NCBI GenBank assembly: GCA_017535725.1
Contig: JAFXTO010000066.1
Coordinates: 1-49,410 of the forward strand
Direction: 5' to 3'
Length of the DNA stretch: 49,410 bases
From: Bacteroidaceae bacterium
GTDB taxonomy: Bacteria; Bacteroidota; Bacteroidia; Bacteroidales; Bacteroidaceae
Under the pieces are notes generated by a model. It did not search any database. It had not been told where the DNA came from and worked only from the letters and a program-made list of their open reading frames with translations. Positions within the stretch are counted from its first letter, which is position 1. Each line of letters begins with the position of its first letter. Positions 131 to 16,489 of this stretch are shown here, piece after piece. The position numbers were made by a program, and so were the translations under genes.

Positions 131-337
131 ATGAAAAAGAAAGTTTATCAACAGCCCACGATGACCGTGGTGGCATTGAGAAGCAAGGCTTGTCTGCTGC
201 AGAACAGCGTACACAGCGTAAGTACCAACCTGACCGATGGCGACGCCATCATCTATAACGGCGAAGGCAGCAGTGTCGATGCCCGCGTGAAACAAGGTGG
301 TGACTACAACGTCTGGGACGACGACTGGAGCAATTAA
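131..337 (+). CDS. Small W-D-D-D-W tail protein, copy 1
   Basis: A 68-residue protein of unknown function. I start it at the ATG at 131 (MKKKVYQQPT) because copy 2 at 3567 starts at the equivalent place; the frame is open upstream to about 107. The N-terminus has the pattern K-x-Y-x-x-P-x-x-x-V-V-x-L. The second half reads STNLTDGDAI, then a Gly/Ser/Asp stretch, DARVKQGG, and ends YNVWDDDWSN. I see no clear signal peptide, although the middle is mildly hydrophobic. It lies just upstream of a C10 protease, and a second copy lies just downstream. Similar small proteins with acidic, Trp-containing tails are, to my recollection, common in Prevotella and Bacteroides genomes without an assigned role. 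A protease substrate, inhibitor or secreted-peptide role is only an inference from position. Confidence 0.7.
   Translation: MKKKVYQQPTMTVVALRSKACLLQNSVHSVSTNLTDGDAIIYNGEGSSVDARVKQGGDYNVWDDDWSN
206..337 (+). repeat. 132-bp direct repeat, copy 1 (matches 3636-3767)
   Basis: The 3' part of the first small gene matches 3636-3767 with 5 mismatches by my count (about 96% identity). The 5' parts of the two genes are much less alike. The match stops at the stop codon. Confidence 0.85.
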
Positions 338-399
338 ATTCTGGTTCGAGGACCAGAGAAATGGAAAATTAAAGAATGAAAAATGAAAAATATAAATAT

Positions 400-420
400 C
401 TCTCCGTGTCTCTGTGTCCT
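400..420. repeat. Low-complexity CTCTGTGTCC-type repeat, intergenic
   Basis: A short pyrimidine-rich stretch (ctctgtgtcc class) lies between small protein 1 and the C10 protease. The same composition recurs inside genes at 4095-4131, 6919-6955 and 11555-11593. Confidence 0.5.
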
Positions 421-425
421 AATTA

Positions 426-449
426 AAACTATTTTTGAATACCTACTTA
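426..449 (+). repeat. TAAGTAGG element, right end only (copy A)
   Basis: The stretch aactatttttgaatacctac followed by tta matches the right end of the element copies at 19069-19255, 36348-36425 and 41433-41487. No left end is visible here. It ends about 21 bp before the C10 protease ATG at 471. It contains TATTTTTG at 430-437, which fits the Bacteroidetes -7 box TAnnTTTG. Confidence 0.65.
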
Positions 450-470
450 TATCATAATGAACATTACTTT

Positions 471-3389
471 ATGAGAAAAAGACTATTATTTGTATTGGCG
501 CTGATGGCCTTCGGCCTGACGGGCGCCTGGGCCGACGAACTGACTGGGAAACAGGCGCTGGAACTGGCGCAGCAGTTCGTGGCGAGCCACAACCTCAGGA
601 AATCGACGCCTACCGTCAAGGAGGCGGGACAGGTGAGCGGCCTCTATGTGTTCAACGTGAGTAATGACGGCGGCTTCGTCATCGTGAGCAACGACGACCA
701 GACCGTGCCCATCCTCGGCTTCGGCCAGAGCGGCAACATCGACATCAACGACCTGCCCGATAACATGCGGGCGTGGCTCGAAGGCTATGCAGACCAGATA
801 GCCTGGCTGCAGAGGAATGAGAATGATGGGGCTAATGGGACCAATGGGACTCGTAGGACCAATAGGACGGCCAAGGCCGATGTCGGTCCGCTCATCACGA
901 CGCAGTGGAACCAGAACGCACCGTATAATAACCTGTGTCCTGAATATGAAACAGGTAAGCGTTGTGCAACGGGTTGTGTGGCAACGGCCTATGCTCAGGT
1001 GATGTATTATACGGAGATGGTAACCCACAATAACACAACTACCACAACGACTGCCGAGATACCCGGTTATACGACCCGTAACAAAAACCACACCTTGTCA
1101 GCCATTCCTACAGGAACTTCCATCAACTGGAGCGCCATGACAGCTGTATATAATGGGAATAGTACTTCTGAGGCGAAAGATGCCGTAGCCAACATGATGC
1201 TCATTTGTGGCTGTGCAGTGCAAATGAACTACGGCCAGGAGTCGGGAGCCTATACTAAGGACGTGGCCACTGCCCTCAAGACTTTCTTCGGCTATGCAGA
1301 GACCACGCAGTTTGTCAATCGCAGCTGCTACACATACGACAACTGGATCGACCTGATATACAACGAACTGCACCAGGGCCGTCCTGTAGTCTATGGTGGA
1401 CAGGGAACGGACGTCGGTCATGAGTTTGTATGCGACGGCTATATGTACGACAATGGTGACCTGTTCCACATCAACTGGGGCTGGGGCGGCATGAGCGATG
1501 GCTATTTCGTCCTGTCGGTGCTCAACCCCGACGAGCAGGGCATCGGCGGCAGCCCTTCGTCCAGCGCATTCACCTTAGGCCAGGAGGCCGTCATCGGTAT
1601 CCAAAAGACCGGTGATATAGGCACTGTGCTTGACGTGCCCACAACCGTGCCTATCGACCTCACCATTAACAGCGTCACTCTGTCGCACAGCACCATCGCC
1701 TTGGGCGAGAGTGTTGACGTGACCATCAACGTGACCAACAACAGCACAACGAATGTCTACGACGGCGAGATATACCTCTCTGGACTACGAGGCGGAAAGA
1801 TGTTTGAAATTCCAGCCGAAGGAACTCAGAACTGCGTCATCACCGTCACCCCGACAGCAGCCAAGTCATACACCGTGAAGGCATCGTATTATACAGGCAC
1901 AACAACCACTGCAACATCCAGCTGCTCCGCTTCGCTTAACGTGAAGAATCAGACGCCCACCAGCGTTACGGCATCAAATGTTGACTCAGAGTCGGCCACC
2001 ATCAGCTGGACGAATGTTGGCGAAGCCACGAAATGGAACCTACGCAGCATGCCTGTTGCTTTTATAACGGAAGACTTTAACGGCTCGGGAAATGGATGGG
2101 GGTTAACCCGTTCTTCAAAGGATGACACCAATGGCATCAGCGGTTCGCCATGTGTGAAGTTTGAGAAAAACGGAAGTAATCAATGGTTAGTGTCCCCACA
2201 GATAACCTTTGGCGGTATATTCTCTTTTTATGCTTGGAAGAGTGGTGAGACAGCAGAGAGTTTCTCTGTCTTGTATTCCAAGGATTCCCACACCTTCACT
2301 TATATCAAAAGAGATGTTGAAGCCACTACCACCCCGACGAAGTACACCATCAACGTCGGTGATCTTTCCGGCAATGGATGGTTAGCTATCATACACTTTG
2401 GCGGTACCGAAGGCTCATGCCTGTATGTGGACGATGCGACCATCGTAGAACCTGCCGGTGACTGGACAATGGTGAGCAATCTGACCGCAAACAGCTATAG
2501 CTTGACGGGACTTACCGCCACCCCACGCTACGAGGTGCAAGTACAGGCTGTAAATAATAATGGTGGTAATTGGAGCAATCCGTTCGTCTTTGCCACTTCC
2601 AAGAACACCTTGGCCCTGCTGAACAAAGACAACGAGGCAGCTACCAAGAATGTAGAACTCTTAAAGCAGTGGGATGGCATGGTTGCCAACGTGACGCTCA
2701 GCGACCGCACGCTTTACCGCGATGACCATTGGAACACACTGTGCCTGCCCTTCGATGTCAACAGTTTCACCGGCACCCCGCTCGAAGGTGCTACCGTGCT
2801 GGCGCTGGATGTCGAACATAAATGGATTTCGAATAATGGGCAATGGGCAATCGACAATGAGAATGGCGACCATCAGACAGGCTTTGATGCATCCACTGGC
2901 ACGCTCGACCTCTTCTTTAACGAGGTCAATGAGATTGAGGCCGGAACGCCGTATCTCATCAAATGGGCCAGAGCCTCAGATATCTCAAATCCCTCATTCT
3001 TCGATGTGACCATCGAAAATGGGGTGCATGATGTAGAGTTCCCCGGCGGATGGTTCAAGGGCAGCTACAACAGCCAGACGTTTGCCGACGATAACAAGCG
3101 CATCCTCTTCCTCGGCGCAAACAACACGCTCTACTGGCCCCAGCCCGGTGCTACCATCGGTGCCCAGCGTGCCTACTTCCAAATCGCAGACGATGTGAAT
3201 GTCAAGGCTTTCAACCTGAATTTCGGCGACAGCTCCGAGCTGACGACGGGAATCGGCCTCACCCCCGACCCCTCTCCGGATGGCGAGGGGAGTGATTACT
3301 GGTACTCACTGGACGGTCGCAAGCTGAATGGCAAACCATCGCGCGCGGGCGTGTATATATATAAAGGTAAGAAGGTTGCGATTAAGTGA
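471..3389 (+). CDS. C10 family (streptopain-type) cysteine protease, secreted
   Basis: A 972-residue secreted papain-fold protease. I chose the ATG at 471 because it gives a signal peptide (residues 1-21, ending GAWA); an upstream TTG at 435 is open but adds nothing. Residues about 22-113 form the pro-domain with the Spi-type pattern GGFVIVSNDDQT. The peptidase core follows from about 138. The likely catalytic Cys is C169 in ATGCVATA and the likely His is H317 in VGHEFVCDGY, followed by HINWGWGG at 333-340; these match streptopain motifs. FN3-like and jelly-roll-like regions follow (about 430-690). The tail (YSLDGRKL ... GVYIYKGKKVAIK) resembles a type 9 secretion or cell-surface sorting tail. 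Two repeat insertions lie in frame: a 9-nt array at the pro-domain junction (826-870) and a palindrome near the C-terminus (3258-3294). It is flanked by the two small W-D-D-x-W proteins. Confidence 0.9.
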   Translation: MRKRLLFVLALMAFGLTGAWADELTGKQALELAQQFVASHNLRKSTPTVKEAGQVSGLYVFNVSNDGGFVIVSNDDQTVPILGFGQSGNIDINDLPDNMRAWLEGYADQIAWLQRNENDGANGTNGTRRTNRTAKADVGPLITTQWNQNAPYNNLCPEYETGKRCATGCVATAYAQVMYYTEMVTHNNTTTTTTAEIPGYTTRNKNHTLSAIPTGTSINWSAMTAVYNGNSTSEAKDAVANMMLICGCAVQMNYGQESGAYTKDVATALKTFFGYAETTQFVNRSCYTYDNWIDLIYNELHQGRPVVYGGQGTDVGHEFVCDGYMYDNGDLFHINWGWGGMSDGYFVLSVLNPDEQGIGGSPSSSAFTLGQEAVIGIQKTGDIGTVLDVPTTVPIDLTINSVTLSHSTIALGESVDVTINVTNNSTTNVYDGEIYLSGLRGGKMFEIPAEGTQNCVITVTPTAAKSYTVKASYYTGTTTTATSSCSASLNVKNQTPTSVTASNVDSESATISWTNVGEATKWNLRSMPVAFITEDFNGSGNGWGLTRSSKDDTNGISGSPCVKFEKNGSNQWLVSPQITFGGIFSFYAWKSGETAESFSVLYSKDSHTFTYIKRDVEATTTPTKYTINVGDLSGNGWLAIIHFGGTEGSCLYVDDATIVEPAGDWTMVSNLTANSYSLTGLTATPRYEVQVQAVNNNGGNWSNPFVFATSKNTLALLNKDNEAATKNVELLKQWDGMVANVTLSDRTLYRDDHWNTLCLPFDVNSFTGTPLEGATVLALDVEHKWISNNGQWAIDNENGDHQTGFDASTGTLDLFFNEVNEIEAGTPYLIKWARASDISNPSFFDVTIENGVHDVEFPGGWFKGSYNSQTFADDNKRILFLGANNTLYWPQPGATIGAQRAYFQIADDVNVKAFNLNFGDSSELTTGIGLTPDPSPDGEGSDYWYSLDGRKLNGKPSRAGVYIYKGKKVAIK
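826..870 (+). repeat. Five 9-nt tandem units inside the C10 protease gene
   Basis: The units are atggggcta, atgggacca, atgggactc, gtaggacca and ataggacgg. Because 9 nt is three codons, the frame is kept. They encode the GANGTNGTRRTNRT stretch between pro-domain and catalytic domain. The intergenic array at 29683-29780 is built from the same unit. Confidence 0.85.
3258..3294 (+). repeat. GC-rich palindromic repeat in frame near the C10 protease C-terminus
   Basis: The stretch opens ctcacccccgacccctctcc and closes ggcgaggggagtg, an imperfect palindrome. It encodes LTPDPSPDGEGS just before the C-terminal sorting-like tail. Related stretches occur in GH94 (18131-18208) and in the S9 peptidase signal region (32048-32084). 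Confidence 0.7.
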
Positions 3390-3396
3390 GAGGACT

Positions 3397-3466
3397 GCCG
3401 AGCTCGCTCGGGCACTCCCGAACGGGAGCAAGCTCGAGCGAAGCTCAAGGTCGTGATAAATTGAAA
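3397..3466. other. Palindrome-rich intergenic stretch after the C10 protease
   Basis: Just after the C10 stop there is a perfect hairpin (ctcccg-aa-cgggag, 3415-3428) inside a larger GC-rich, self-complementary region with gagctcgctcggg and caagctcgagcg. No T-tract follows, so a terminator role is uncertain. It runs into the 73-bp repeat at 3472 and shares motifs such as gtcgtga and gcgaagct with it. Confidence 0.45.
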
Positions 3467-3471
3467 GATCG

Positions 3472-3544
3472 AACTTTTGGAGCAGCGAGCGCCATCAAGC
3501 TTGCTTGAAATGGCCGAGTCGTGACAAAAGTCAGCGAAGCTAAA
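3472..3544 (+). repeat. 73-bp repeat, copy 1 (inverted copy at 9744-9816)
   Basis: From aacttttggagcagcgagcg to gtcagcgaagctaaa, this stretch is identical, read in reverse complement, to 9744-9816. It contains the small palindrome tcaagcttgcttga. It lies 22 bp upstream of small protein copy 2. Confidence 0.9.
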
Positions 3545-3566
3545 TATTGAAAAGAATCATAGAATC

Positions 3567-3767
3567 ATGAAAAGAGATTATTTGAAACCCACCATGCGGG
3601 TGGTGAAGTTGCAGCATAGCAGCCTCATCTGTCAGAGCGTACACAGCCTAAGTACCAACCTGACCGATGGCGACGCCATCATCTATAACGGCGAAGGCAG
3701 CAATGTCGATGCCCGCGTGAAACAAGGTGGTGACTACAACGTCTGGGACGACAACTGGAGCGAGTAA
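3567..3767 (+). CDS. Small W-D-D-x-W tail protein, copy 2
   Basis: A 66-residue paralogue of the protein at 131-337. The leader (MKRDYLKPTMRVVKL) keeps the K-x-Y-x-x-P-x-x-x-V-V-x-L pattern but differs in most other residues. From SVHSLSTNL to the end it is almost identical to copy 1: DGDAIIYNGEGS, then VDARVKQGG, ending YNVWDDNWSE. Start and stop sit in the same relative places. No enzymatic motif is visible. It lies between the C10 protease and the Cthe_2159 lipoprotein, which has its own promoter at 3857-3887, so this gene probably belongs with the protease. Function unknown. Confidence 0.75.
   Translation: MKRDYLKPTMRVVKLQHSSLICQSVHSLSTNLTDGDAIIYNGEGSNVDARVKQGGDYNVWDDNWSE
3636..3767 (+). 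repeat. 132-bp direct repeat, copy 2 (matches 206-337)
   Basis: This is the 3' part of small gene 2. It differs from 206-337 at 5 positions by my count, while the preceding 60-70 bp of the gene is poorly conserved. Confidence 0.85.
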
Positions 3768-5754: not shown

Positions 5755-8301
5755 CTATCGGTTGGGAGAATCCCAGATGTAGGTGTCGTCGCAGGTGATG
5801 CTGATGGTCTGCAGTCCAATGGAGAGGAGGAAGTCACCTTCTTCGAGGGTCCATCGGCCATCATAGCCCACGAAGGCGAGGTCGCTGGCTGGGAGTCGGA
5901 AGCTGACGGTCTTGGTCTCGCCGGGTTGCAGGTCAATCTTCTCGAAGCCCCGCAGACGGCGTCCGTCGGGTACCAAGGATGCTACGAGGTCGCTGCTGAA
6001 GAGCAACACGCTCTCCTTGCCGGCACGGGCACCTTGGTTGGTGACGTCGATGCTGACGGTGAGGGTGTCGGTGTGGGTGAAGTGCAGTCTGGCGGGGGAG
6101 GCGTCAGATTCCTTCTTGGCGGGAGCAGCACCGAGCACGCTGACTTGCATGTTGCTATATGCGAAGGTGGTGTAGCTCAAGCCGTGGCCGAAGCCCCATT
6201 GCTGGGTGATGCGGGCGTTGTAGTCGTAGGCACCTTCCATGGTGGCTGACTGCTCGCTCTTCTTGAAGTCGTAGTTGGTGAGGGAGTTGATTTCGCTGGG
6301 GTAGGTGAAGGGAAGGCGTCCGGAGAAGTTGTAGCGTCCGGAGATGAGTCCTGCGAGTGCATCGCCTCCGTAGTTGCCGGGGATCATGATGTGTACCACG
6401 GCCTTGGCCAGTGGCTCGATATCGGCAAGGATGCGCGGACGGCCTTCGTTGAGGACGAGGATGATGGGCTTGCCGGTCTTGGCGAGAGCCTTGACGAGGT
6501 TGCGCTGGTTCTCGGAGAGGGTGAGGTCGGTGAGGTTGCCGGGGGTCTCGGTGTAGGAATTCTCGCCGATGCAGGCAACGATGACATCCACGCCCTGGGC
6601 GGCACGGACGGCGGCGGTGATGCCGTCGGAGGCGAGGGTGGGGGATGTGGAGGCGGCGGGAGATGTGGCGGGAGAACCGCCACACACCAACTCTTCCCAG
6701 TACTTGCCTTGCTCGTTGTAGGTCACGCCTTGGGAGAGGCGAACGTTGTCAGTGCCGAACTCATTGCAGAAGGCCTCGTAGATGGTGTTGTACTGGGTGG
6801 CGAACTCGTCGGTGCGGTCGCCTTGCCAGGTGTAGCTCCAACCTCCGTTGAGGCAGCGCATCTGGTTGGCGTTGGGGCCGGTGAGGAGGATTTTGAGTTG
6901 CGACTTAGTCGCAACAGACGGAACGGAGGGAGCAGAGGGAACAGAGGGAGAGGAGGAAGCAGAGGTGGTAGAGGCGGCGGAGAGAGCGGAGGCGGTGGAG
7001 ATCGCGGAGGAGGCAGGGGGGAGGAGGGGGAGGAGGTTACCTTCGTTCTTCAGAAGGACCATGCTTTCTATAGCTCCTTCGAGGGCGAGCTGTGCAAACT
7101 CGTCGCCACCGAACTTGGGATAGTCGGCCAGGTTCTGCGTGGGATGGTCGAAGAGGTCGAGACGGTACTTCATGCGGAGGACGCGGCGGACGGCATCATC
7201 GATGCGGCTCATGGGGATGGCTCCCTCGTCGACCAACTCCTTCAGCAGGAGGCAGGCATCGGCGTTGTAGGGTTCCATAATCATGTCAATGCCGGCGTTG
7301 ATGGCGATGCGCAGGGCGTCTTTCTTGTCGCGGGCCACCATCTCGCGGGTGTAGAGGTTGTTGATGTCAGCCCAGTCGGTGATGAGCACTCCATCCCATC
7401 CTGTCTGTTCCTTCAGCCAGGTGGTGAGCAGCTCGCGGTTGGCGTGTACGGGCATTCCGTTGATGGACGATGAGTTGACCATAATGGAATGGGCGCCCGC
7501 CTTGACGCAGGCGAGGAAGGGTGCGAAGAATTTCTCACGCAGCTGTGCGGGGGCGATGTAGGCGGGAGTACGGTCCTTGCCTGACCAGGGGACGCTGTAG
7601 CCCATGTAGTGTTTCAGCGAGACAGCCACATGATGCTGGTCTACGTGGTTGGGGTCTTCGCCTTGGAAACCAAGGGTTTGTGCCCTACCCATCTCGGCAT
7701 TGACGTAGCAGTCCTCGCCGAAGTTCTCATAGAAACGGGGCCAGCGGGCATCACGTGCCAGGTCGATGGTGGGGCTGAATGTCCAGGGTACGCTCACGGC
7801 ACGGGTCTCGTAGGCAGTAGCCTCGGCAGAACGGCGGGCTATGTCGCGGTTGAAGGTGGCAGCTACGTTGATGTTCTGCGGGAAGAGAGTGCCTCCCTGC
7901 GTGTAGGTGGAGCCGTGGTTCTGGTCGAGTCCGAAGAGGCACGGGATGCCGATATGCTTCATTGACAGCTCCTGGATGTCCGCAATAATCTCTTGCCATT
8001 GCTGGGCGGTGGGAGCGCAGGTGTTGGGGGCGTTGAGGATGGAGCCAATCTTGTACTTGGAGAAGAGGGTGTCTGCCTTGGCGGGGTCGATGTGGAACAC
8101 GCCCTGGGCATCGTTGGTGCCGAAGAGGTCTGTGACCAACTGCATCATCTGACCAATCTTCTCTTCTATGGTCAGCTTGTTCAGCGTCTCGGTCACCTTA
8201 GCCTCGATGACGGCATCTTGGCCCTGGCTGGTTCCCTGTTGGGTACAGGAAACCAGCATGGCCATGATGGCGACAATGGTAGAAAGAATTATTTTTCTCA
8301 T
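5755..8301 (-). CDS. GH3 beta-glucosidase (BglX-like), lipoprotein
   Basis: An 848-residue glycoside hydrolase family 3 enzyme, expected to release glucose from the non-reducing ends of beta-glucan oligosaccharides. The lipobox is near C19 (AMLVSC). The N-terminal barrel spans about 35-390, with substrate-site residues in SLKHYMGY and the likely nucleophile D309 in VLITDWAD. The second alpha/beta domain starts near 405 and resumes with ILLTGPNANQMRCLNGGW after a low-complexity insert. VACIGENSYTETPG near 575-588 is the second active-site region. A fibronectin-type domain closes the protein. A Ser/Ala/Pro-rich insert (about 431-465) and a shorter one (about 542-558) interrupt the usual GH3 sequence. 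It is the last gene of the susC operon, 6 bp after the binding lipoprotein. Confidence 0.92.
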   Translation of the reverse strand: MRKIILSTIVAIMAMLVSCTQQGTSQGQDAVIEAKVTETLNKLTIEEKIGQMMQLVTDLFGTNDAQGVFHIDPAKADTLFSKYKIGSILNAPNTCAPTAQQWQEIIADIQELSMKHIGIPCLFGLDQNHGSTYTQGGTLFPQNINVAATFNRDIARRSAEATAYETRAVSVPWTFSPTIDLARDARWPRFYENFGEDCYVNAEMGRAQTLGFQGEDPNHVDQHHVAVSLKHYMGYSVPWSGKDRTPAYIAPAQLREKFFAPFLACVKAGAHSIMVNSSSINGMPVHANRELLTTWLKEQTGWDGVLITDWADINNLYTREMVARDKKDALRIAINAGIDMIMEPYNADACLLLKELVDEGAIPMSRIDDAVRRVLRMKYRLDLFDHPTQNLADYPKFGGDEFAQLALEGAIESMVLLKNEGNLLPLLPPASSAISTASALSAASTTSASSSPSVPSAPSVPSVATKSQLKILLTGPNANQMRCLNGGWSYTWQGDRTDEFATQYNTIYEAFCNEFGTDNVRLSQGVTYNEQGKYWEELVCGGSPATSPAASTSPTLASDGITAAVRAAQGVDVIVACIGENSYTETPGNLTDLTLSENQRNLVKALAKTGKPIILVLNEGRPRILADIEPLAKAVVHIMIPGNYGGDALAGLISGRYNFSGRLPFTYPSEINSLTNYDFKKSEQSATMEGAYDYNARITQQWGFGHGLSYTTFAYSNMQVSVLGAAPAKKESDASPARLHFTHTDTLTVSIDVTNQGARAGKESVLLFSSDLVASLVPDGRRLRGFEKIDLQPGETKTVSFRLPASDLAFVGYDGRWTLEEGDFLLSIGLQTISITCDDTYIWDSPNR
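6919..6955. repeat. Low-complexity purine-rich stretch inside GH3
   Basis: On the plus strand this reads acggagggagcagagggaac and continues in the same style. It lies inside a longer biased segment (about 6905-7025) that encodes the Ser/Ala/Thr/Pro linker at residues about 431-465 of GH3. Confidence 0.55.
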
Positions 8302-8307
8302 TTTATA

Positions 8308-9660
8308 TTATTTATAGGTGATGCGCACTAACTTGTATCCAAAGCCGACGACGAGCATACCTTCGCGCTCATCCACGATGGCCTTGTTGGCTTCTGTGTA
8401 GGTGAACTCGAAGGGGTTGGGAGTTTCGTCGGTGAGGTCGAACTGAGCTACCACCTGATCTTCGTCATTATCACCCCACCAGGGAGTGGTAATGCGCATG
8501 GCATGGTATTCGGCTTCGATGATTTCGTAGTACATGCAAACCGTAGCACCTACGGGCACATCAGCCATTTCGTCTGGGGTGATTTGTACGTTGCTGTCAC
8601 CCCAATTGATGTCCACAGCGCCTTCCCAGACCGTTACCTCTGCCGGAGCAACATTCTCAACGGCCACGACCTTGGTCAGCTTGTAGCCGAAACCAACGAC
8701 GAGCATACCGCCGCGCTCATCCACGATGGCCTTGTTGGCTTCTGTGTAGGTGAACTCGAAGGGATTGGGGGTCTCGTCGGTGAGGTCGAACTGAGCGAGT
8801 ATCTGGTCTTCGGCATTATCACCCCACCAGGGAGTGGTGATGCGCATGGCATGGTATTCGGCTTCGATGATTTCGAAGTACATGCGTATCGTTGTGCCTA
8901 CGGGCACGTTTGCCAGATTATCAGGGGTGATGGTCACATTGCTGTCGCCCCAGTTGATGTCCACCGCGCCTTCCCAGAGCACCGTTTCCTTGATGCCAGG
9001 ATCCACGTATGCCTCGTTGCTTACGAGGAACATGCCGCAACCATAGCGAGTGCCCTCGGCATCCTCGATGAAGACCATGTATTCGCCTTCTTCCATAGCA
9101 GGGACGTCGAAGGTTATCTTGCCGTTGGCGTAGGAGACGTTGGTTGCCTCCTGATCGCCAACAATCACCTTGGACAGACTGGTGACATTCGTGCAGTCGA
9201 TGGTCTTAGTGGTGCCGGTGGTCAGCCAACGTGATTTCTCATCACCAGCCAGGACAGGGTCGCCTTCAGCCGGATTAACGGTGACGTTGATGGTGCGCGA
9301 GGTGCTCTTGCCCTTGGTGGTCGTGGCCACAATCTTCAGGACGTGGTTGCCTACGGGGAGTGTCTGGTCAAGGGTGGTTCCTTCGGCAATCTGGACATTA
9401 TCGAGGAGCCAGGTCACGGTAGTATATTCGATGGGAGTGACCTTGATTTCAATCTTCAGGTTGGTCTTGCGGTCAAGGACCTTGTCGCTCAGGTCAGTGT
9501 TCAGAATGCGGGGGTCGTCATTCTCTGATACGGTGAAGTAGGGGTCGTCGGAAGAACATGCCGACAGGGAAGCTGCACCGGCGGCAGCAAGACATACAGC
9601 AAACAGCACGGTCAATGCGTTCCAGCCCTTACGAAGATATTGTTTCATATATGTTTTCAT
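8308..9660 (-). CDS. Surface glycan-binding lipoprotein (SusE/SGBP-B position) with duplicated module
   Basis: A 450-residue lipoprotein with a long N-region and the lipobox at about 31-35 (SLSAC). Residues 50-130 look like an Ig/PKD-type domain (TVTWLLDNVQIAEG, ending INVTVNP). Residues about 135-215 may be an IPT/TIG-type domain. The C-terminal half is two copies of a module of about 104 residues (228-331 and 344-446) starting VWEGAVDINWGDSNV and containing ITTPWWGDN and FEFTYTEANKAIVDE. Trp-rich modules of this kind suggest a carbohydrate-binding module, but I cannot name the family. It lies between susD and GH3, where PULs usually carry a surface glycan-binding protein. MKQYL at 9648 is an alternative start. 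Confidence 0.75.
   Translation of the reverse strand: MKTYMKQYLRKGWNALTVLFAVCLAAAGAASLSACSSDDPYFTVSENDDPRILNTDLSDKVLDRKTNLKIEIKVTPIEYTTVTWLLDNVQIAEGTTLDQTLPVGNHVLKIVATTTKGKSTSRTINVTVNPAEGDPVLAGDEKSRWLTTGTTKTIDCTNVTSLSKVIVGDQEATNVSYANGKITFDVPAMEEGEYMVFIEDAEGTRYGCGMFLVSNEAYVDPGIKETVLWEGAVDINWGDSNVTITPDNLANVPVGTTIRMYFEIIEAEYHAMRITTPWWGDNAEDQILAQFDLTDETPNPFEFTYTEANKAIVDERGGMLVVGFGYKLTKVVAVENVAPAEVTVWEGAVDINWGDSNVQITPDEMADVPVGATVCMYYEIIEAEYHAMRITTPWWGDNDEDQVVAQFDLTDETPNPFEFTYTEANKAIVDEREGMLVVGFGYKLVRITYK
8323..8979 (-). repeat. Tandem duplication of a roughly 310-bp coding module
   Basis: The segments 8668-8979 and 8323-8631 are close DNA repeats that encode the two C-terminal modules of the binding lipoprotein. 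Long blocks match at the DNA level, for example catggcatggtattcggctt in both. A short linker (residues 332-343) separates them. Confidence 0.85.
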
Positions 9661-9831: not shown

Positions 9832-11613
9832 TCAATCGACATATCCCTTGCCGAAAGGTGGTGTGAAGGTAGCTTGCACATTCAGAGTGCCGGTGTCCCA
9901 CCAGAGGCGGTGATGCCAATCGTCTTCTATCTCGCCCTTGGTGTTCTGCTTGCCATAGATTTCAAGTACGGCCTTGTAGTTGAAACTGTTGTACTGAGAT
10001 TCCAGTTCGGGGTATTTCAGTCGTGTGGGCATCGAGAGGTCAGGGTCGTCATAGACGAATCCGTCGCCGGGGAAGGTAGCCAGACGTGTGCGGTCGAGTA
10101 CGGCGGGATAGTCGGAGCGGCGCATGTTGGCCCATGCCTCTGAGGGATTCATCAGGTGAAGAATCCAAGCCTGGGTGTTGATGGTCTCCTTCGGATTGGC
10201 ACCTAAGGGGTTGCTCGCGAGGAACGCGTCGATTTCGGCAGAGGTAATCTTATCGGAGGTGAGGTAATAGTTGTTGAGCATCTCCATGGAAGCGCGCACG
10301 CCAGCCTCGTAGTGGCTCTTGGCATCGCCGCTGACGGCCCATCCTTTGGTCTGAGCCTCAGCCAGCAGGAATTCCACTTCTGCGGATGTAATCAGGATTC
10401 CAGGGCAAGAGGGCATCTCGAAGTCGATGTTCAGGCACGGGCGAGTGGCGCGTGCACGGTAGTCGCTGTTGTCGTAAATGTTGGCATCCATGGCTGCCCA
10501 TTTGGCCAGCGTTGGGATGTTGTCGATGGTGATAACGTCCATCCAGTTATCATACCAGGCAGCTCCCGGATTGCAAGGCTCTTCGCCCACACCCTTGCTT
10601 GCGAAGTAGGCCAGCACCTCGTCGGTCAGGTCGATGTTCTGGTCCTTGTCGGGCTTGATCTGGCTACGCTTGATGTTGTAGTAGTGTCGGCAGATGCGGT
10701 AGAGACGCGGGTCGCCCGTATTCTTCATCTGGTAGAACAGCATGGAGCTAATGAAGGTGGGCGAGGAGGGGTCTTGTCCGTAGAGAATCTCGCTGAGGGC
10801 GTTGGTGCGGAAGTCATAGTCGATGGCACCATCGTAGAAGGTATAGGGTGAATCCTGATAGACGATGTAGGCATCATCTGCAGCTGTGGCAATATATCCA
10901 GCGGGATGGTTCATGGCTTTCTCGAACTCCTGCTTGGCCTTGGCGGGGTCAACGTCAGAGATACGCATGGCATAGCGCATACGGAGGGAATTCGCATACT
11001 TCTGCCACTTGTTTACGTCGCGCTTCATGCTTGTCAGGTCGCCCGTGATGTTGTCGGTGCCGGTGCCTAACTGTGTGACACAAGAATCCAATTCGTTGAA
11101 GAACCAGTAGTAGAGTTCCTGTACGCTGTCGTACTTCGGTGTGGAGTTGTCAGAGATGAAGCCCAGTCCAGCCTCGGAGCAGGGTACGTCGCCATAGGTG
11201 TCGGCCAGTACTGCGGTGAGGAATACGCGATGGATGCGCAGGGCGGCATTCAGATTGGGTCTGTCTTCAGAATTGTGGATGGCATCGACGAGGTTCTTGA
11301 TGGATACCTCATAATAGCGGTCCCAGATGCGGCGGGAGATGTCGTTCTCGAAGTGTACGGCACCAGCATAGTTGGTCACATTCCAGCCGCCGGCCAGGTG
11401 CTGGGTGAAGCCAGTGATATAGTTACGATAGGTGTCCATTAGGCTGAAGTCACCGTAGGTCTGGAGCAGTGCTGTCGTCAATTGTGCATTGGGATCCAGC
11501 TTGGAGACTTTGGATTGGTCGGTGTTCAGCTCTTCCATGTGGCTGTCACTGCAAGAGACACAGAAGGCACAGAGAAGACAGAGGGCACAGAGGCTTTTAT
11601 ATATTGTTTTCAT
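9832..11613 (-). CDS. SusD/RagB family outer-membrane glycan-binding lipoprotein
   Basis: A 593-residue SusD-type lipoprotein. I chose the ATG at 11613 because MKTIYK starts a lipoprotein signal ending LLCAFCVSC; an upstream ATG at 11634 is in frame. The mature protein starts CSDSHMEELNTDQSKVSKLDPNAQL, followed by the TPR-like helical body (WQKYANSLRMRYAMRISD, NPSEAWANMRRSDYPAVL), typical of SusD-like proteins. SusD lids the SusC transporter and binds oligosaccharides at the cell surface. The gene follows susC on the same strand across about 110 bp of low-complexity sequence. The signal peptide is encoded by a low-complexity repeat (11555-11593). Confidence 0.95.
   Translation of the reverse strand: MKTIYKSLCALCLLCAFCVSCSDSHMEELNTDQSKVSKLDPNAQLTTALLQTYGDFSLMDTYRNYITGFTQHLAGGWNVTNYAGAVHFENDISRRIWDRYYEVSIKNLVDAIHNSEDRPNLNAALRIHRVFLTAVLADTYGDVPCSEAGLGFISDNSTPKYDSVQELYYWFFNELDSCVTQLGTGTDNITGDLTSMKRDVNKWQKYANSLRMRYAMRISDVDPAKAKQEFEKAMNHPAGYIATAADDAYIVYQDSPYTFYDGAIDYDFRTNALSEILYGQDPSSPTFISSMLFYQMKNTGDPRLYRICRHYYNIKRSQIKPDKDQNIDLTDEVLAYFASKGVGEEPCNPGAAWYDNWMDVITIDNIPTLAKWAAMDANIYDNSDYRARATRPCLNIDFEMPSCPGILITSAEVEFLLAEAQTKGWAVSGDAKSHYEAGVRASMEMLNNYYLTSDKITSAEIDAFLASNPLGANPKETINTQAWILHLMNPSEAWANMRRSDYPAVLDRTRLATFPGDGFVYDDPDLSMPTRLKYPELESQYNSFNYKAVLEIYGKQNTKGEIEDDWHHRLWWDTGTLNVQATFTPPFGKGYVD
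11555..11593 (-). repeat. Low-complexity CTCTGTGCC repeat encoding the SusD signal peptide
   Basis: On the plus strand this reads gagacacagaaggcacagag and continues in the same way. On the coding strand, repeats of ctctgtgcc/ctctgtctt encode the hydrophobic LCALCLLCAFCVS core of the SusD lipoprotein signal. Confidence 0.75.
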
Positions 11614-11624
11614 ATTTATTTTAT

Positions 11625-11715
11625 TTTTTATCACGTTATGACGTTATGTCGAGTTCTCGATATTTCGTCGTTTCGTTATGGGATTATTTCGTTATCTCGT
11701 TGTTACGATATGGAT
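11625..11715. repeat. Low-complexity CGTTATG/CGATAT stretch between susC and susD
   Basis: The gap between susC and susD consists of degenerate short units such as cacgttatgacgttatgtcg. No promoter or hairpin stands out. A related ACGATTT array occupies the yidC-engB gap. Confidence 0.5.
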
Positions 11716-11722
11716 GTCTTCC

Positions 11723-14700
11723 TTAGAACTTCAGGTTCACGTTCAAACCGTAGCTGCGGCGTGAGGGCAGTGAACCATATTCCAGGCCGAGTCCGGAGGT
11801 GTTGTAGCCGGAGTCGGGGTCAATGTTCGGAATGTTCTTCCAGACGATGAACGGGTTGCGGGCCACGAAGCTGACGCTGAGAGCCTTGACAGCCTTGCCC
11901 AGCATTTTCTCGGGGAAGTTGTAGCCGAAGGTGATTTCGCGGCATTTCACGTAGGAGTTGTCATAGACGAAGGCACTCTGCACATTGTTGGCAACAGCCT
12001 TCCAGTACGTCTCGGGGTTGACGGGAATATCATTTTCCCGATAGGTGCCGTCGCCATTGTCGATGACGCCGGGAGCTATGAATCCCTGGCAGTTGTTGGC
12101 TTCCCGCCATGCTTTCTCTGTCATGCCTGCGGCCTCGCGGGCTTCCTCGGAGGAGTACCATAGGTCGCGTCCCTCCAAGGTCTGGATAGCCTTACCCGTC
12201 TTGTAGGCCGAGTTCATGGACATGGAATAGAGGTCGGCACCCACCTTCACGTCGAAGCCTGCTGAGAGGCGGAAGTTCTTGTAGGTGAAAGTCGTGTAGA
12301 AACCGCCTGTCCAGTCCCATGACGAATTACCAATCGTCTTCACTGTCTGATCCACTTCGGGCAGACCCGTCTCTGCATTGATAATCACCTTACCTTCGGG
12401 ATTGCGCAGGAAGTCCTTGCCACGGATGGCACCGTAGTCCTCGCCAACCTTGGCACCCACGCTGACGCCGCACCAGGAAGCGTTGGCCAGTTCGAAATAG
12501 TCCATGCCTTCGACGAGGGATTTAACCTTGTTGCTGTTCTTTGAGAAGTTCACACCGGCATCCCATGCAAAGTCGCCAGCCTGGATGACACGGCCGTTGA
12601 GGGCAAGCTCTATACCCTTGTTCTCTATTTCACCAGCATTAATCAGGCGGTAGCTGTAGCCTGACGTGGTGGTAGTCTTCAGTCCGAGAATTTGGTCTTT
12701 GGACAATTGGTTATAGTAGGTGAAGTCCAAGCTCAGACGTCCCTGGAAGAACTTCATTTCCAAACCGATTTCGAAGGAGTTGGTGCGGGTGGGCTTAAGG
12801 TCCTTGTTGGGCTGTGTGCTGTTGTTGATCATGCCGATGGTATAGCCGGAATAGCTGTACTTGCCTGTGGCATAGTTCAATGCCAGCTGGTAGGGGTCGG
12901 TATCGCTACCTACCTGTGCCCATGATGCGCGAACCTTACCATAGTTGATGATCTTCTGGCTCTTGATGAACTCCGAGAACACGACGCTACCGGACACAGA
13001 AGGATATACATATATATTATTACTGACGGGCAGCGTGGAAGACTTGTCGCCGCGGACGGTGCCTTCCAGGTAGTAGGTGTGCTTGTAACCTACGCTGGCA
13101 CTTCCGAAGATGGAGTTGATTTGCTTCTGGTAGGTGTCCTCGCGCACGTTCTGCTCCTCATAGTTCATGATGTTGATGACTCCGTCCATCTGCTGGGTCA
13201 GACCTTCGTTGTTGGTCGTGCGGTTGTTGACCTTGAAGATATTGCCGCCGAGGGTGGCATTGAGGTCGAAGTCGCCGAATTGGTTGTTGTACAGGGCCAG
13301 CAACTCAGCGTTCAGAGTACGGTTGTTGAAAATCTGGTCTGTGAGCTTACCGGCAGGAGTGCCAGGTGTGGTGCGGGCGATGTAATCTTGGAAATTCATG
13401 AAGTTCATGTCCGTACCAATCGTTCCCTGCAGCTTCAGGTGGCTGTCGATGTTCCAGATGGCCTTTCCCGTGAGGCGGAAGACATCTTTCTTCGATGTGT
13501 TCTGGTTCTTGTAGAGGTCCCAGTAGGGGTTCTTGTTGTACTGGTCGTTGCCATTCCAGTTGGAGTAGTTGCCGTCGGCATCCTCGTAGGTCTTCAGCCA
13601 CTCGTGGTTGTAGGTTCCGGCCAGCGTCATCAGGTTCTTGCCGACGTTGCTCTGCGAGTCACCCAGGGCGGGACGATTCTTCACGTCCTCGCGCGTGTAA
13701 TTGGCCGTGAAGTCCAGGTCAACGGGGCCTGCAGAGGTGTTCACACGCAGGTTGAAGTTGTCGCGGCTCATGTTGGTATTGGGCAGGATGTCGCTGTTGC
13801 GCATGTCAGTCACGGAGAAACGCATACCTGTCTTGCCGGAGTTCACGGAGAGGATAGCTGTGTTCTGGGTGGTGAAGCCGGTGCGGAAGAAACCGTTGGC
13901 ATTATTGGGGTACATCTTGAACTCGCGTTCCTCGCCGTCGAAGTATTTGTAGATGAAACCGTCGGCCTTGGGTCCCCAGCTGGAGTTGGTGCCGGAGGTA
14001 CTGGAGGTGGGGAGTTTGCCACCATAGCCCATACCATAGACTTGCTGGATGTCGCCCCACTTGGCCAGCTGAGAGTCAATGGTGAACGAACCGTTGTATT
14101 CGGCGCTGATGCGGTCTTTCTCGGCTTTCTTTGTGGTGATGAGGATGACACCGTGGGAGGCACGGCTACCATAGAGGGCTGAAGCGGCAGGGCCTTTCAG
14201 TACAGTCATGTTCTCGATGTCGTCGGGGTTAATGGCTGAGATACCATCGCCCAGGTCATAACCGCCAGACTCGCCGGCACTTCCGAAGTTGGTGTTGTCG
14301 AGGGGTACACCGTCGATAACATAGAGCGGTTGGTTGTTGCCTGCCATTTCCGTGTTACCACGCAGCAACACACGTGTGGAACCCGAAGCGCCACCGGCGG
14401 TATTCTGAACGATGAGGCCGGCCACCTTACCCGAAAGTGAATTGATTACATTGGTCTCCTTGGCTTTCGTCAGTTCTTCGCCCTTCACCTCGGCAACGCC
14501 GTAGCCCAGGGCCTTGCGCTCGCGCTTGATGCCTAAAGCCGTCACCACCACTTCGCTCATGGCGGTGCTCTCTTCCTCCAACACAATTCTCATGTTGGCA
14601 GTGGCTTTCACCGTCACGGTCTTATAGCCGATGAAGCTAATAATCAGTTCCGTGCCGGGAGCCACGTTCAGGGTGAACTTGCCATCCATATCGGTCACGG

Positions 14701-14899
14701 TGCCCTGATTGGTTCCTTTTACTTTCACGCTGGCGCCGATAATGGTCTCCGTGCCATCGGTGACCGTACCGACTACCGTGCCATCATCCTGAGCAGCAGC
14801 GCTGGAGGGCACTGCCGCCATTGCCTTCAAGGGCAAGGAAGCCGTCAGCATACAGAAGCCGAGGGCTGCCACAAAGATAATACTTCGATTGTTTCTCAT
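11723..14899 (-). CDS. SusC/RagA family TonB-dependent outer-membrane transporter
   Basis: A 1058-residue TonB-dependent transporter for oligosaccharides. The signal peptide covers about residues 1-35. A CarboxypepD_reg-like/CNA-B domain follows (about 41-108, GTVTDGTETIIGASVKVKG, ending RIVLEEES). The TonB-box region is MSEVVVTALG. The plug contains VINSLSGKVAGLIV and PLYVIDGVPLDN. The rest is beta-barrel, ending with a C-terminal Phe (VNLKF). Length and order match the SusC family. It pairs with SusD and the binding lipoprotein downstream. A promoter box lies 57-64 bp upstream of the start, and an operator-like inverted repeat lies further upstream. Confidence 0.96.
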   Translation of the reverse strand: MRNNRSIIFVAALGFCMLTASLPLKAMAAVPSSAAAQDDGTVVGTVTDGTETIIGASVKVKGTNQGTVTDMDGKFTLNVAPGTELIISFIGYKTVTVKATANMRIVLEEESTAMSEVVVTALGIKRERKALGYGVAEVKGEELTKAKETNVINSLSGKVAGLIVQNTAGGASGSTRVLLRGNTEMAGNNQPLYVIDGVPLDNTNFGSAGESGGYDLGDGISAINPDDIENMTVLKGPAASALYGSRASHGVILITTKKAEKDRISAEYNGSFTIDSQLAKWGDIQQVYGMGYGGKLPTSSTSGTNSSWGPKADGFIYKYFDGEEREFKMYPNNANGFFRTGFTTQNTAILSVNSGKTGMRFSVTDMRNSDILPNTNMSRDNFNLRVNTSAGPVDLDFTANYTREDVKNRPALGDSQSNVGKNLMTLAGTYNHEWLKTYEDADGNYSNWNGNDQYNKNPYWDLYKNQNTSKKDVFRLTGKAIWNIDSHLKLQGTIGTDMNFMNFQDYIARTTPGTPAGKLTDQIFNNRTLNAELLALYNNQFGDFDLNATLGGNIFKVNNRTTNNEGLTQQMDGVINIMNYEEQNVREDTYQKQINSIFGSASVGYKHTYYLEGTVRGDKSSTLPVSNNIYVYPSVSGSVVFSEFIKSQKIINYGKVRASWAQVGSDTDPYQLALNYATGKYSYSGYTIGMINNSTQPNKDLKPTRTNSFEIGLEMKFFQGRLSLDFTYYNQLSKDQILGLKTTTTSGYSYRLINAGEIENKGIELALNGRVIQAGDFAWDAGVNFSKNSNKVKSLVEGMDYFELANASWCGVSVGAKVGEDYGAIRGKDFLRNPEGKVIINAETGLPEVDQTVKTIGNSSWDWTGGFYTTFTYKNFRLSAGFDVKVGADLYSMSMNSAYKTGKAIQTLEGRDLWYSSEEAREAAGMTEKAWREANNCQGFIAPGVIDNGDGTYRENDIPVNPETYWKAVANNVQSAFVYDNSYVKCREITFGYNFPEKMLGKAVKALSVSFVARNPFIVWKNIPNIDPDSGYNTSGLGLEYGSLPSRRSYGLNVNLKF

Positions 14900-14955
14900 A
14901 CAAAAATTATTTATTAGAAATGTTTATAAAATGCAAATCTTCGCTTTTCGTGGTG

Positions 14956-14963
14956 CAAAAGTA
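14956..14963 (-). promoter_or_regulatory. susC promoter -7 box (TACTTTTG)
   Basis: TACTTTTG followed by CACC on the minus strand fits TAnnTTTG. No TTTG is seen about 20 bp upstream, which fits a promoter that needs an activator. The predicted start is about 14949, giving a leader of about 50 nt. Confidence 0.65.
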
Positions 14964-15000
14964 CACTAGAATACCTTATTAGAGGGTTTGATTCTGTGCA

Positions 15001-15045
15001 GAAAAGGGTTTGAAAACTCTCAATCGTCAGTTTTCAGACCTTTTC
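15001..15045. promoter_or_regulatory. Inverted-repeat operator upstream of susC
   Basis: The arms gaaaagggtttgaaaact (15001-15018) and agttttcagaccttttc (15029-15045) form an imperfect inverted repeat; TTTGAA and TTCAGA are 18 bp apart. The site begins about 38 bp upstream of the susC -7 box. The same architecture occurs upstream of GH5 (20656-20698). A terminator role for the preceding symporter gene is possible but less likely given the conserved pairing. Confidence 0.6.
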
Positions 15046-15069
15046 TGACAGCCATTATACAGATGTCTT

Positions 15070-16449
15070 TTAGTCAATGTGTTCAATCTCCTTTAACTCG
15101 TTTGTAATTGCTTGCATTCTGCTGGTCGTGAGGGGATATATCCAGATGACTAAAGCCATAATAATGGCAATGGCAGCGGGGATATAACTCATGGTGAGGC
15201 GCATGCCCAGAAGAGCTGTGTCTGTCTGGCTGGCAGCATTGGGTACGAGGCCGAAGGCGTCGAAGAGCAGCAGTACGGCAGAACCGGCAATGGCGCCGCC
15301 GAACTTCTGGGCCATAGAGCCACTGGAGAAGATGAGAGCGGTTGAGGAAGTGCCATTCTGGACGGTGGAATAGTCGGCCACGTCGGCATACATGCTCCAC
15401 ACCAGCGGGCTTACAATGCCTGTGAAGAGACTGATGAGAATCTGAAGCAGCAGCATGGTCATGAAACCTCCGTTGCTCACAGGTACGTAGAAGAACAGCA
15501 CACTGAGAACCGCCATCGCAAGAGCCGAGACGATGAAAGTCGTCTTCTTGCCGAAACGCTTGCTCAAAGGAACGGCACTCACCACGCCTACCATGTTGCA
15601 CACCTCGCCCACGGCCAGGAACAAGCCTGCAAAGAACAGGAACTCCAGTGTGCCGAGACTGATGTGGGCGTTCTCACCGATATAGTATTTGAAGTAATAG
15701 GCCACCGTGGCACCACGGACGGTATTGAATAGGTTGGTGCACAGGGCGCCAGCCGTGATGATCCACCAAGGTGCGTTCTTCAGCAGATGCTTGAAATCAT
15801 TGCCAAGCCCAGCACCTCCCTTCACCTTCACATGTTCCCGCGTCAGCAGGAAGCTGCCGATGAAGAGGCAGAAGCACACGATTGCTATTACAATCATTGC
15901 TCCTTGCCAAGAGTCGGGAGTAGAAAGTGAAAAACTGGAGCTGAACAGATTTACCAGCGGTTCCCACGCGAAGAGAGCGATGAACGAGCCGCCGTAGGCA
16001 AAGAACATACGATAGCTGCTGAAGACCGTCTTCTCCTGTGAGTCCGCTGTCATCACACCGAGCATGGAGGCGTAGGGCACGTTGATGCCGGTATAGACGG
16101 TCATCATTAAAATATAGGTAATGTATGCGTAGATGAGTCGGCCCTGATTGTCCCAATCGGGCGTGGTGAAGAGCAGCACGCCGGCGATGGCAAAAGGGGC
16201 TGCAAACCACAACAAGTAAGGACGATACTTGCCCCAGCGCGTCTCGGTACGGTCGGCAACCACACCCATCATGGGGTCGCTCACAGTGTCCCAAAAACGG
16301 GTGACGAACATCAGCGTGGCGGTCTGGGCCAACGTCAACTGGAAGATATCACTATAGAAGATAGGAAGATAGTAGGAAAAAATCTTCCAAAACATGGAGC
16401 TGGACATGTCGCCCATTCCATAGCCAATTTTTTCTCTTAACCGAGCCAT
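15070..16449 (-). CDS. GPH-family (MFS) sugar:cation symporter
   Basis: A 459-residue inner-membrane protein with about 12 hydrophobic segments. I start it at the ATG at 16449 (MARLREKIGYGMGDM), because this opening is typical of the glycoside-pentoside-hexuronide:cation symporter family; the upstream extension runs into GH94. Family motifs seen are RFWDTVSDPMMGVVADRTETRWGKYRPY and VPYASMLGVMTADSQEKTVFSSYR. The likely substrate is cellobiose or short cello-/beta-glucan oligosaccharides, inferred from the cellobiose phosphorylase 40 bp upstream in the same operon. Confidence 0.92.
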   Translation of the reverse strand: MARLREKIGYGMGDMSSSMFWKIFSYYLPIFYSDIFQLTLAQTATLMFVTRFWDTVSDPMMGVVADRTETRWGKYRPYLLWFAAPFAIAGVLLFTTPDWDNQGRLIYAYITYILMMTVYTGINVPYASMLGVMTADSQEKTVFSSYRMFFAYGGSFIALFAWEPLVNLFSSSFSLSTPDSWQGAMIVIAIVCFCLFIGSFLLTREHVKVKGGAGLGNDFKHLLKNAPWWIITAGALCTNLFNTVRGATVAYYFKYYIGENAHISLGTLEFLFFAGLFLAVGEVCNMVGVVSAVPLSKRFGKKTTFIVSALAMAVLSVLFFYVPVSNGGFMTMLLLQILISLFTGIVSPLVWSMYADVADYSTVQNGTSSTALIFSSGSMAQKFGGAIAGSAVLLLFDAFGLVPNAASQTDTALLGMRLTMSYIPAAIAIIMALVIWIYPLTTSRMQAITNELKEIEHID

Positions 16450-16489
16450 TGATGAAATAATTGTTAGTTGTCTGATTGAACCGAATAAA

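Follow-up and report, generated by a model that had tools for sequence, protein, structure and literature searches.

Two small genes around a C10 protease gene of a Bacteroidaceae bacterium as probable precursors of an LPP-like peptide system trailing type IX secretion cargo

The closest described relatives of the system reported here are the linear polyphosphorylated peptides (LPPs), known from Paenibacillus and further Bacillota (PMC13381572, Nat Commun 2026), whose core consists of a PqqD-type recognition element (RRE) of ribosomally synthesized and post-translationally modified peptides (RiPPs), an HprK-like kinase and an archaeal-type signal-peptidase-like leader peptidase (SpI), with a transporter and a nucleotidyltransferase (NTP transferase). 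LPP precursors are 35-200 aa long, with a conserved N terminus carrying Y-x-x-P, a serine near the end of the leader and variable C termini; HprK phosphorylates a serine of the core, and SpI cuts off the leader with the help of the RRE (PMC13381572). Y-x-x-P has been characterised as the motif that lasso-type RREs (PMC12710340) and also LPP RREs (PMC13381572) recognize, and paeninodin-type lasso peptides likewise combine a split PqqD-like B1 protein, which binds the leader, with an HprK-like kinase (PMC5067487, PMC13381572). Short C-terminal sorting domains (short CTDs) of proteins exported by the type IX secretion system (T9SS) have been studied by mass spectrometry in Prevotella intermedia, where their published length is 43-55 aa (PMC11969387). 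Here, we analyzed a stretch of 49,410 nt, referred to as the window, from a Bacteroidaceae bacterium (GCA_017535725.1, contig JAFXTO010000066.1), in which two small open reading frames (ORFs) lie around the gene of a secreted C10 protease. Our analysis suggests that these ORFs are probably precursor peptides of an LPP-like modified-peptide system, whose precursor genes are scattered across the chromosome as satellites that lie downstream of T9SS cargo genes.

The small genes occupy 131-337 (+; 68 aa, MKKKVYQQP...YNVWDDDWSN) and 3567-3767 (+; 66 aa, ending in YNVWDDNWSE), and the protease gene between them occupies 471-3389 (+; 972 aa). Each small gene begins with a leader-like segment: residues 1-26 in gene 1 (131-208, +), running from Y-x-x-P through a conserved serine, and Y5-x-x-P8 ... 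C22-x-S24 in gene 2 (3567-3638, +). The post-leader block that follows (206-337 and 3636-3767, both +) is 96% identical in DNA over 132 nt, the 5' parts of the two genes being different; as read from the sequence, the shared block starts in both copies at the codon of the conserved serine that closes the leader-like segment. It holds four codon differences, of which four out of four are non-synonymous, and looks as if it had recently been converted or duplicated and then begun to diverge. An earlier, sequence-only reading of this DNA had described two paralogous proteins of 66-68 aa on one strand, with near-identical tails and divergent leaders, and the ORFs confirm that description. It had further stressed that the pair flanks the protease on both sides, which is true of their position but appears incidental, as the usual order in the family is cargo gene, then small gene, and gene 1 begins only 130 bp from the contig end, with its own upstream gene not on contig JAFXTO010000066.1. 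The cargo gene of gene 1 would sit beyond the contig start, and gene 2, directly downstream of the protease gene, is the protease's partner.

The two window proteins gave chance-level matches only in Pfam (E 0.08 and 0.12) and none in NCBIfam. A first profile of 8 rows, made from copies in the window's genome and used at E<=0.01, matched 11 times in that genome and also hit 14 of the 15 other genomes of the same genus. With a second profile of 45 rows, used at 1e-3 within the family Bacteroidaceae, 32 of 61 genomes and 19 of 30 genera had matches, with 6-19 copies in the four same-genus genomes (13 matches in the window's genome and 19 in another, labelled G035); at 1e-5, a stricter threshold than that used within the family, 117 other genomes drawn from across the phylum yielded no match. 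Compared with NCBIfam, the 45 members matched three models, with a best E of 0.11. The proline of Y-x-x-P is invariant in the 45-row alignment and the tyrosine is kept in >90% of rows. Further, the pattern M-x(1-5)-[YFW]-x-x-P describes 77 of 78 members; 76 of these use Y at the aromatic position, 70 have A, C or L at Y+17 and 52 have S at Y+19. The leader consensus reads Y-x-x-P-x-L/M-x-V-V-x-L ... I/L-A/C/L-x-S. The N terminus of the small proteins (Y-x-x-P, then A/C-x-S) resembles the leaders read by PqqD-type proteins. The part behind the leader is acidic (median net charge -5) and ends in an aromatic-acidic tail in 72 of the 78 members by a loose pattern; a crude test found a hydrophobic stretch in 4 of the 78. 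AlphaFold modelled residues 1-20 of the small protein with a confidence (pLDDT) of ~85 and the rest with 50-61, with no notable helix or strand and a global score (pTM) of 0.20, and the post-leader block of gene 2 is probably disordered.

These ORFs are short, and the two copies of the 132-nt block hardly differ in DNA, as would be expected of untranslated frames or a repeated non-coding element. We consider such a chance or annotation artefact barely conceivable: the protein motifs are kept across genera, strand and order are strict (as described below), and the ratio of non-synonymous to synonymous change (pN/pS) was 0.48 in a set of 39 gene pairs whose proteins are 50-97% identical, a ratio biased low by the choice of pairs by protein identity. 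The ratio supports translation of the small ORFs, on which the sequence-only reading had made its case depend.

Gene context was read in the loci fetched out of 117 matches of the 8-row profile and 58 C10 domain matches; these comprised C10 loci and family-member loci, plus 26 loci found by sequence, mostly from metagenome-assembled genomes of ruminant-gut Bacteroidaceae and Prevotellaceae. An upstream gene, defined as an ORF of at least 100 aa, is in view for 73 of the 78 members (5 of the 48 members of the first set have none owing to contig or locus ends), and it lies on the same strand in 73 of 73 cases. In 68 of the 73 (39/43 and 29/30 in the two sets), this upstream ORF ends in a short-CTD tail, which amounts to 67 distinct cargo, with two small genes sharing one cargo gene in one locus (L126). 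The gaps between cargo and small gene range from -90 to 232 nt. Of the ORFs in the two locus sets, short-CTD ORFs account for 99 of 682 and 35 of 143; on the downstream side, a tail ORF on the same strand follows the small gene in only 11 of 46 and 5 of 29 cases. Outside the genus, 13 of 16 loci read by eye show the order of cargo, then peptide, two do not and one is unresolved (L147 and L165 were left undecided in this reading). In G035, a nearly complete genome of the same genus that was not part of profile building, 16 of 19 members lie at most 200 nt behind a tail match, among the matches listed; one of these tail matches carries a stop. We also noted one member directly behind the gene of the SprA translocon protein itself (L094, G013:C8, 8001-8189), another beside an Mfa-like fimbrillin gene, which is not T9SS cargo (L104, 7075-8189), and members in L226 and L227 that by eye lie beside lipoprotein-like genes, likewise not T9SS cargo. 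A loose pattern search behind unpartnered CTD genes passed an ORF in 4 of 63 cases, one of them plausible (L047), and the same pattern matched behind 38 of 569 non-CTD genes, some of these matches being true members.

The tails of the partner cargo resemble YDLSGRK...KGIYIVNGKKVxxK. We assigned them by motif comparison with the P. intermedia cargo (PMC11969387) because the sorting tails of six cargo matched no Pfam or NCBIfam model at a limit of E 10. Among the 67 partner cargo, some of which are cut by contig or locus ends, motif B is present in 64, motif D in 64, a basic end (KK or RK) in 63 and T-x-[IV] in 52. The PT/GI-like cleavage region, the invariant glycine of motif B, the GxY/GxN of motif D and the basic motif E are shared with the short-CTD cargo of P. 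intermedia (PMC11969387). In the window, the sorting domain of the protease (3249-3386, +) is 46 aa long from an inferred TT/GI cut, within the published range, and carries YSLDGRK as motif B, GVYI as motif D and KK as motif E. The T9SS marker SprA (TIGR04189) was found in the window's genome on contig C45 in two pieces; both matches fall inside one 2802-aa frame (10546-18492), which suggests an in-frame insertion.

The partner cargo are otherwise diverse: 5 of 67 match C10, and adhesin, leucine-rich repeat, fn3, phosphatase, endonuclease, sulfatase, M6 and S41 matches occur in one to a few cargo each. What they have in common is an uncatalogued domain of ~190 aa just before the sorting tail, which is an addition relative to the cargo of P. 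intermedia. In the window protease, this penultimate domain lies at 2694-3234 (+; bounds approximate) and reads WNTLCLPF...AGTPYLIK...VKAFNLNF; AlphaFold predicts it, together with the tail, to be beta-rich with a mean pLDDT of 75, the tail being confident after a low-confidence linker. The domain was found in 64 of 64 testable partner cargo (38 in the training set and 26/26 held out) vs 15 of 61 unpartnered short-CTD genes (held-out partner vs unpartnered, Fisher 6e-12). In the loci selected for C10, a small gene accompanies 7 of 18 domain-positive cargo of known status, these 7 being in the training set, and 0 of 26 domain-negative cargo. Further, distances between peptides correlate with distances between sorting domains beyond within-genome shuffles, after removal of 5 near-duplicate cargo, for the leader (p=0.001) and the whole peptide (p=0.02) and, at p=0.09, for the tail; the covariation thus lies mainly in the leader half. 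We conclude that the small genes are very likely satellites of short-CTD cargo with the penultimate domain and not of C10 proteases. Elsewhere in the window, we observed a second C10 protease gene (42882-46142, -) and found no small gene behind it; its product has a penultimate domain that is diverged and a T9SS sorting tail of the short type. Another gene (23668-27972, -) encodes a 1434-aa protein with a long-type T9SS tail (TIGR04183 E 1.9e-4, 21.3 bits vs a cut-off of 23).

The sequence-only reading had set the small proteins in the context of the C10 protease and had named a lack of enrichment near C10 genes as evidence against a link. Streptopain and its Spi-type inhibitors (I69) indeed share with the window the placement of a small gene beside a C10 protease, and an inhibitor or substrate specific to the neighboring protease would explain the adjacency in the window and behind 5 of 57 C10 genes. 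Those 57 genes, from 58 domain matches (two in G009 being one gene), lie in 16 genomes, and a rate of 5/57 (~9%) does not exceed the rough 16-20% estimated for short-CTD cargo in general, a baseline that sets 13 small-gene against 80 CTD matches in the window's genome and 19 against 93 in G035, among the matches listed, with a CTD profile built from partner cargo. We therefore rejected C10-specific pairing as the organizing rule, on the grounds that only 5 of 57 C10 genes have a small gene and only 5 of 67 partner cargo are C10 proteases. The small genes come close to C10 genes because C10 proteases are T9SS cargo. The inhibitor idea is disfavored because the small family also accompanies adhesins, phosphatases, nucleases and sulfatases: 62 of the 67 partner cargo have no C10 match, and the family accompanies mostly non-proteases. 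In addition, the I69 domain belongs to the protease itself as its prodomain, matched in the window at residues 21-110 (531-800, +; Inhibitor_I69, 2.9e-21) ahead of the catalytic domain (906-1508, +; Peptidase_C10, 3.3e-60), and the five C10 cargo pair with five I69 prodomain matches. The small proteins show no similarity to I69 in Pfam, in line with the view of the sequence-only reading that they are unlike Spi or the prodomain. A C10-specific inhibitor or substrate is thus highly improbable. From among the options of that reading, a secreted signal or export-marked peptide fits our data, but the C10 protease as such is not the partner.

If the small proteins are leader-bearing precursors, a machinery that reads them would be expected in the same genomes. 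One PqqD gene was found in the window's genome, whose assembly is 76% complete (L196:8998-9261, -; PF05402 8e-16), and PqqD is present in 67 of 76 genomes. In the window's genome, the PqqD gene stands in a row with the genes of an HprK-like protein (TIGR04352 1.4e-4) and an SpI-like protein (TIGR02228 1.5e-4; the model also gave a match at 2.7e-6); a further gene near this operon we take to be RpoD-like. The 9 copies that were aligned all retain the P-loop SGTGKST of the HprK-like protein and the SMxPF/HR motifs of the SpI-like protein. Of the 59 genomes with SpI, 55 have it next to PqqD on the same strand. In the sample of 117 other genomes from across the phylum, one has the SpI-like protein (1e-8), a range similar to the narrow range of the peptides. 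Elsewhere, G042 has HprK-like, SpI and PqqD genes and then an ABC exporter in a row, and G038 has an NTP_transf_5 gene with PqqD and HprK-like genes.

A discrete PqqD-type RRE gene with an HprK-like kinase gene and an archaeal/SipW-type signal peptidase gene beside it is thus found here as in the LPP systems, and the precursors share with those of LPPs the conserved N terminus with Y-x-x-P, the serine near the leader end, the variable C termini and the size (PMC13381572). The differences are that the host belongs to the Bacteroidaceae and not to the Bacillota and that the precursors are dispersed and paired with T9SS cargo, with the processing operon in trans. A precursor within the cluster, as in LPP systems, is missing from the window's genome but is seen in G079 and possibly in G056. 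In G079 (L197, C24, ~7890-9634), a fused HprK-like and SpI-like protein of 403 aa is encoded between the PqqD gene and a leader-like peptide of 33 aa, which is a member of the small family located in cis behind the fusion. In G056 (L233, C7, 2270-6164), genes for PqqD, HprK-like and SpI-like proteins, for a protein of 148 aa that begins with MKKIYEKP and for a radical SAM protein form a further RiPP-type cluster in a Bacteroidaceae genome, and no SprA match was found in that genome. Family members also lie within ~7 kb of PqqD in G038 and G061, both without SprA matches.

We next compared the occurrence of family and machinery in the 61 genomes (32 family-positive, 29 family-negative), using statistics that ignore phylogeny. 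SpI is present in 31/32 family-positive vs 15/29 family-negative genomes (p=4e-5; 25/25 vs 10/20 at completeness >=90%), PqqD in 32/32 vs 22/29 (p=0.004) and SprA in 26/32 vs 12/29 (p=0.0017). Within SprA-negative genomes, SpI is found in 6/6 vs 6/17 (p=0.014). Further, a DNA pattern for the leader occurs 131 times vs 14 times for the reversed control in 46 SpI-positive genomes and 19 vs 14 times in 15 SpI-negative genomes; these are raw counts over the 61 genomes, unchecked singly for small-ORF starts, and include some unrelated genes. Overall, these data make it likely that the small genes encode leader-bearing precursors handled by a trans-acting operon and work like LPPs.

The same leader also resembles the Y-x-x-P motif of lasso peptides (PMC12710340, PMC13381572), which raises the question of whether the small proteins are precursors of lasso peptides or bacteriocins that, once exported, serve to kill competitors, their adjacency to cargo being a side effect of insertion into expressed operons. 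The best NCBIfam matches of PqqD from the window's genome include lasso PqqD models, below cut-off, and 2 of 45 members match a lasso precursor model, only at E 0.28. The consistent order of cargo, then peptide, and the domain shared by the cargo speak against random insertion. No lasso (macrolactam) cyclase or B2 peptidase was noticed in the PqqD loci read, a genome-wide search for them not having been made, and where paeninodin-type leaders have a tryptophan, the leader residue here is tyrosine (PMC5067487, PMC13381572). We regard this explanation as quite improbable. Many dispersed copies per genome, as found here, would be unusual for bacteriocins and count against it as well.

A different reading of the same pairing is that of a cargo-specific helper, an unmodified and mostly disordered protein that aids or regulates export of the upstream cargo as a pilot, chaperone or translational coupler, with Y-x-x-P binding another partner. 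This would account for the tight pairing with cargo that bear the penultimate domain and a short CTD, the covariation of peptide and CTD, the lack of a hydrophobic stretch in 74 of the 78 members in the crude test and the linkage to SprA presence, with one member directly behind the SprA gene. It leaves unaccounted for the co-occurrence with the SpI/PqqD/HprK operon, the excess of the leader pattern in SpI-positive genomes only, the members near the operon in genomes without SprA matches (in G079 and, within ~7 kb of PqqD, in G038 and G061) and the members beside lipoproteins. A helper of this kind therefore seems unlikely to us.

Several observations weigh against the proposal that the small proteins are LPP-like precursors of T9SS cargo satellites. 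The HprK-like and SpI-like model matches are weak and all lie below cut-off, the operon and the window precursors are on different contigs of the window's genome, and by eye neither an NTP transferase nor an MsbA-like transporter lies beside the operon there. Of the LPP leader YxxPxVLxHQxIxFETxxS (PMC13381572), Y-x-x-P and the hydrophobic positions are kept, but HQ and FET are absent and the serine is at Y+19 and not at Y+18. The 148-aa protein of G056 was found through the leader DNA pattern, has 0 family-profile matches, shares only the start, and is separated from SpI by an ORF on the opposite strand. SpI and PqqD also occur in the 15 and 22 of 29 family-negative genomes counted above, whereas G069 (87% complete) has the small family and no SpI match, and G035, rated 100% complete and with 19 small genes and 93 short-CTD matches listed, has no SprA match at 1e-10. 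Within SprA-positive genomes, the SpI association is not significant (25/26 vs 9/12, p=0.08), nor is the SprA association within SpI-positive genomes (25/31 vs 9/15, p=0.16), and both are phylogenetically structured. The fimbrillin-like and other lipoprotein neighbors of some members do not fit an exclusive link to T9SS cargo, and phosphorylation, leader cleavage and export of the small peptides are steps that we infer. We do not class the system as an LPP because its leader departs from the published consensus, the window's genome has no in-cluster precursor, a transporter and an NTP transferase were seen by eye with parts of the machinery only in other genomes (G042 and G038), and polyphosphorylation of the core serine and RRE-dependent leader cleavage are predictions here.

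The gene order, the shared cargo module, the leader conservation, the intact operon and the co-occurrence were observed directly, and we propose the following working for the LPP-like system. A cargo gene and its peptide gene would be expressed together, given the same strand and the short gaps, and the genome's PqqD-type recognition protein would bind the N-terminal leader of the peptide. By analogy with LPPs, the neighboring HprK-like kinase may then phosphorylate the precursor, most likely at the conserved serine, and the signal-peptidase-like protease of the operon may remove the leader near the A/C-x-S site. In what is the weakest step, the acidic product with its Trp-Asp tail would leave the cell and act together with, or upon, the surface protein of the upstream gene, perhaps by contact with the shared penultimate domain. 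The genetic pairing and the covariation lead us to favor a cargo-paired role at the surface or in the envelope.

The system appears to be undescribed, as the sequence-only reading had supposed for small proteins linked to exported proteins. Among the matches listed for the open-licence literature, neither small genes behind T9SS cargo nor a PqqD/HprK/SpI operon in Bacteroidota are described; in the main texts, the string "Bacteroid" does not occur in PMC13381572, and the words "downstream" and "operon" do not occur in PMC11969387. Taken as a whole, the data allow for a T9SS-coupled RiPP system in Bacteroidaceae, in which several to ~20 surface proteins per genome would each be accompanied by a leader-bearing peptide of its own. 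One recognition protein-kinase-peptidase operon would mature these peptides in trans, and each peptide, once processed and probably phosphorylated, would serve the penultimate or sorting domain of its cargo as a dedicated partner in export, surface assembly or regulation. In this full form, we put the proposal forward tentatively, as a possibility short of an even chance. The work defines an uncatalogued cargo module made up of a penultimate domain, a short sorting domain and a trailing peptide gene. The biological role of LPPs is called unknown by their authors (PMC13381572), and if our proposal is right, both what LPP-like peptides do and how short-CTD cargo are handled become directly testable. 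The LPP-type pathway would then extend to common gut bacteria, attached to T9SS-exported surface proteins, and protein export in Prevotella-like gut bacteria would be tied to a modified-peptide pathway.
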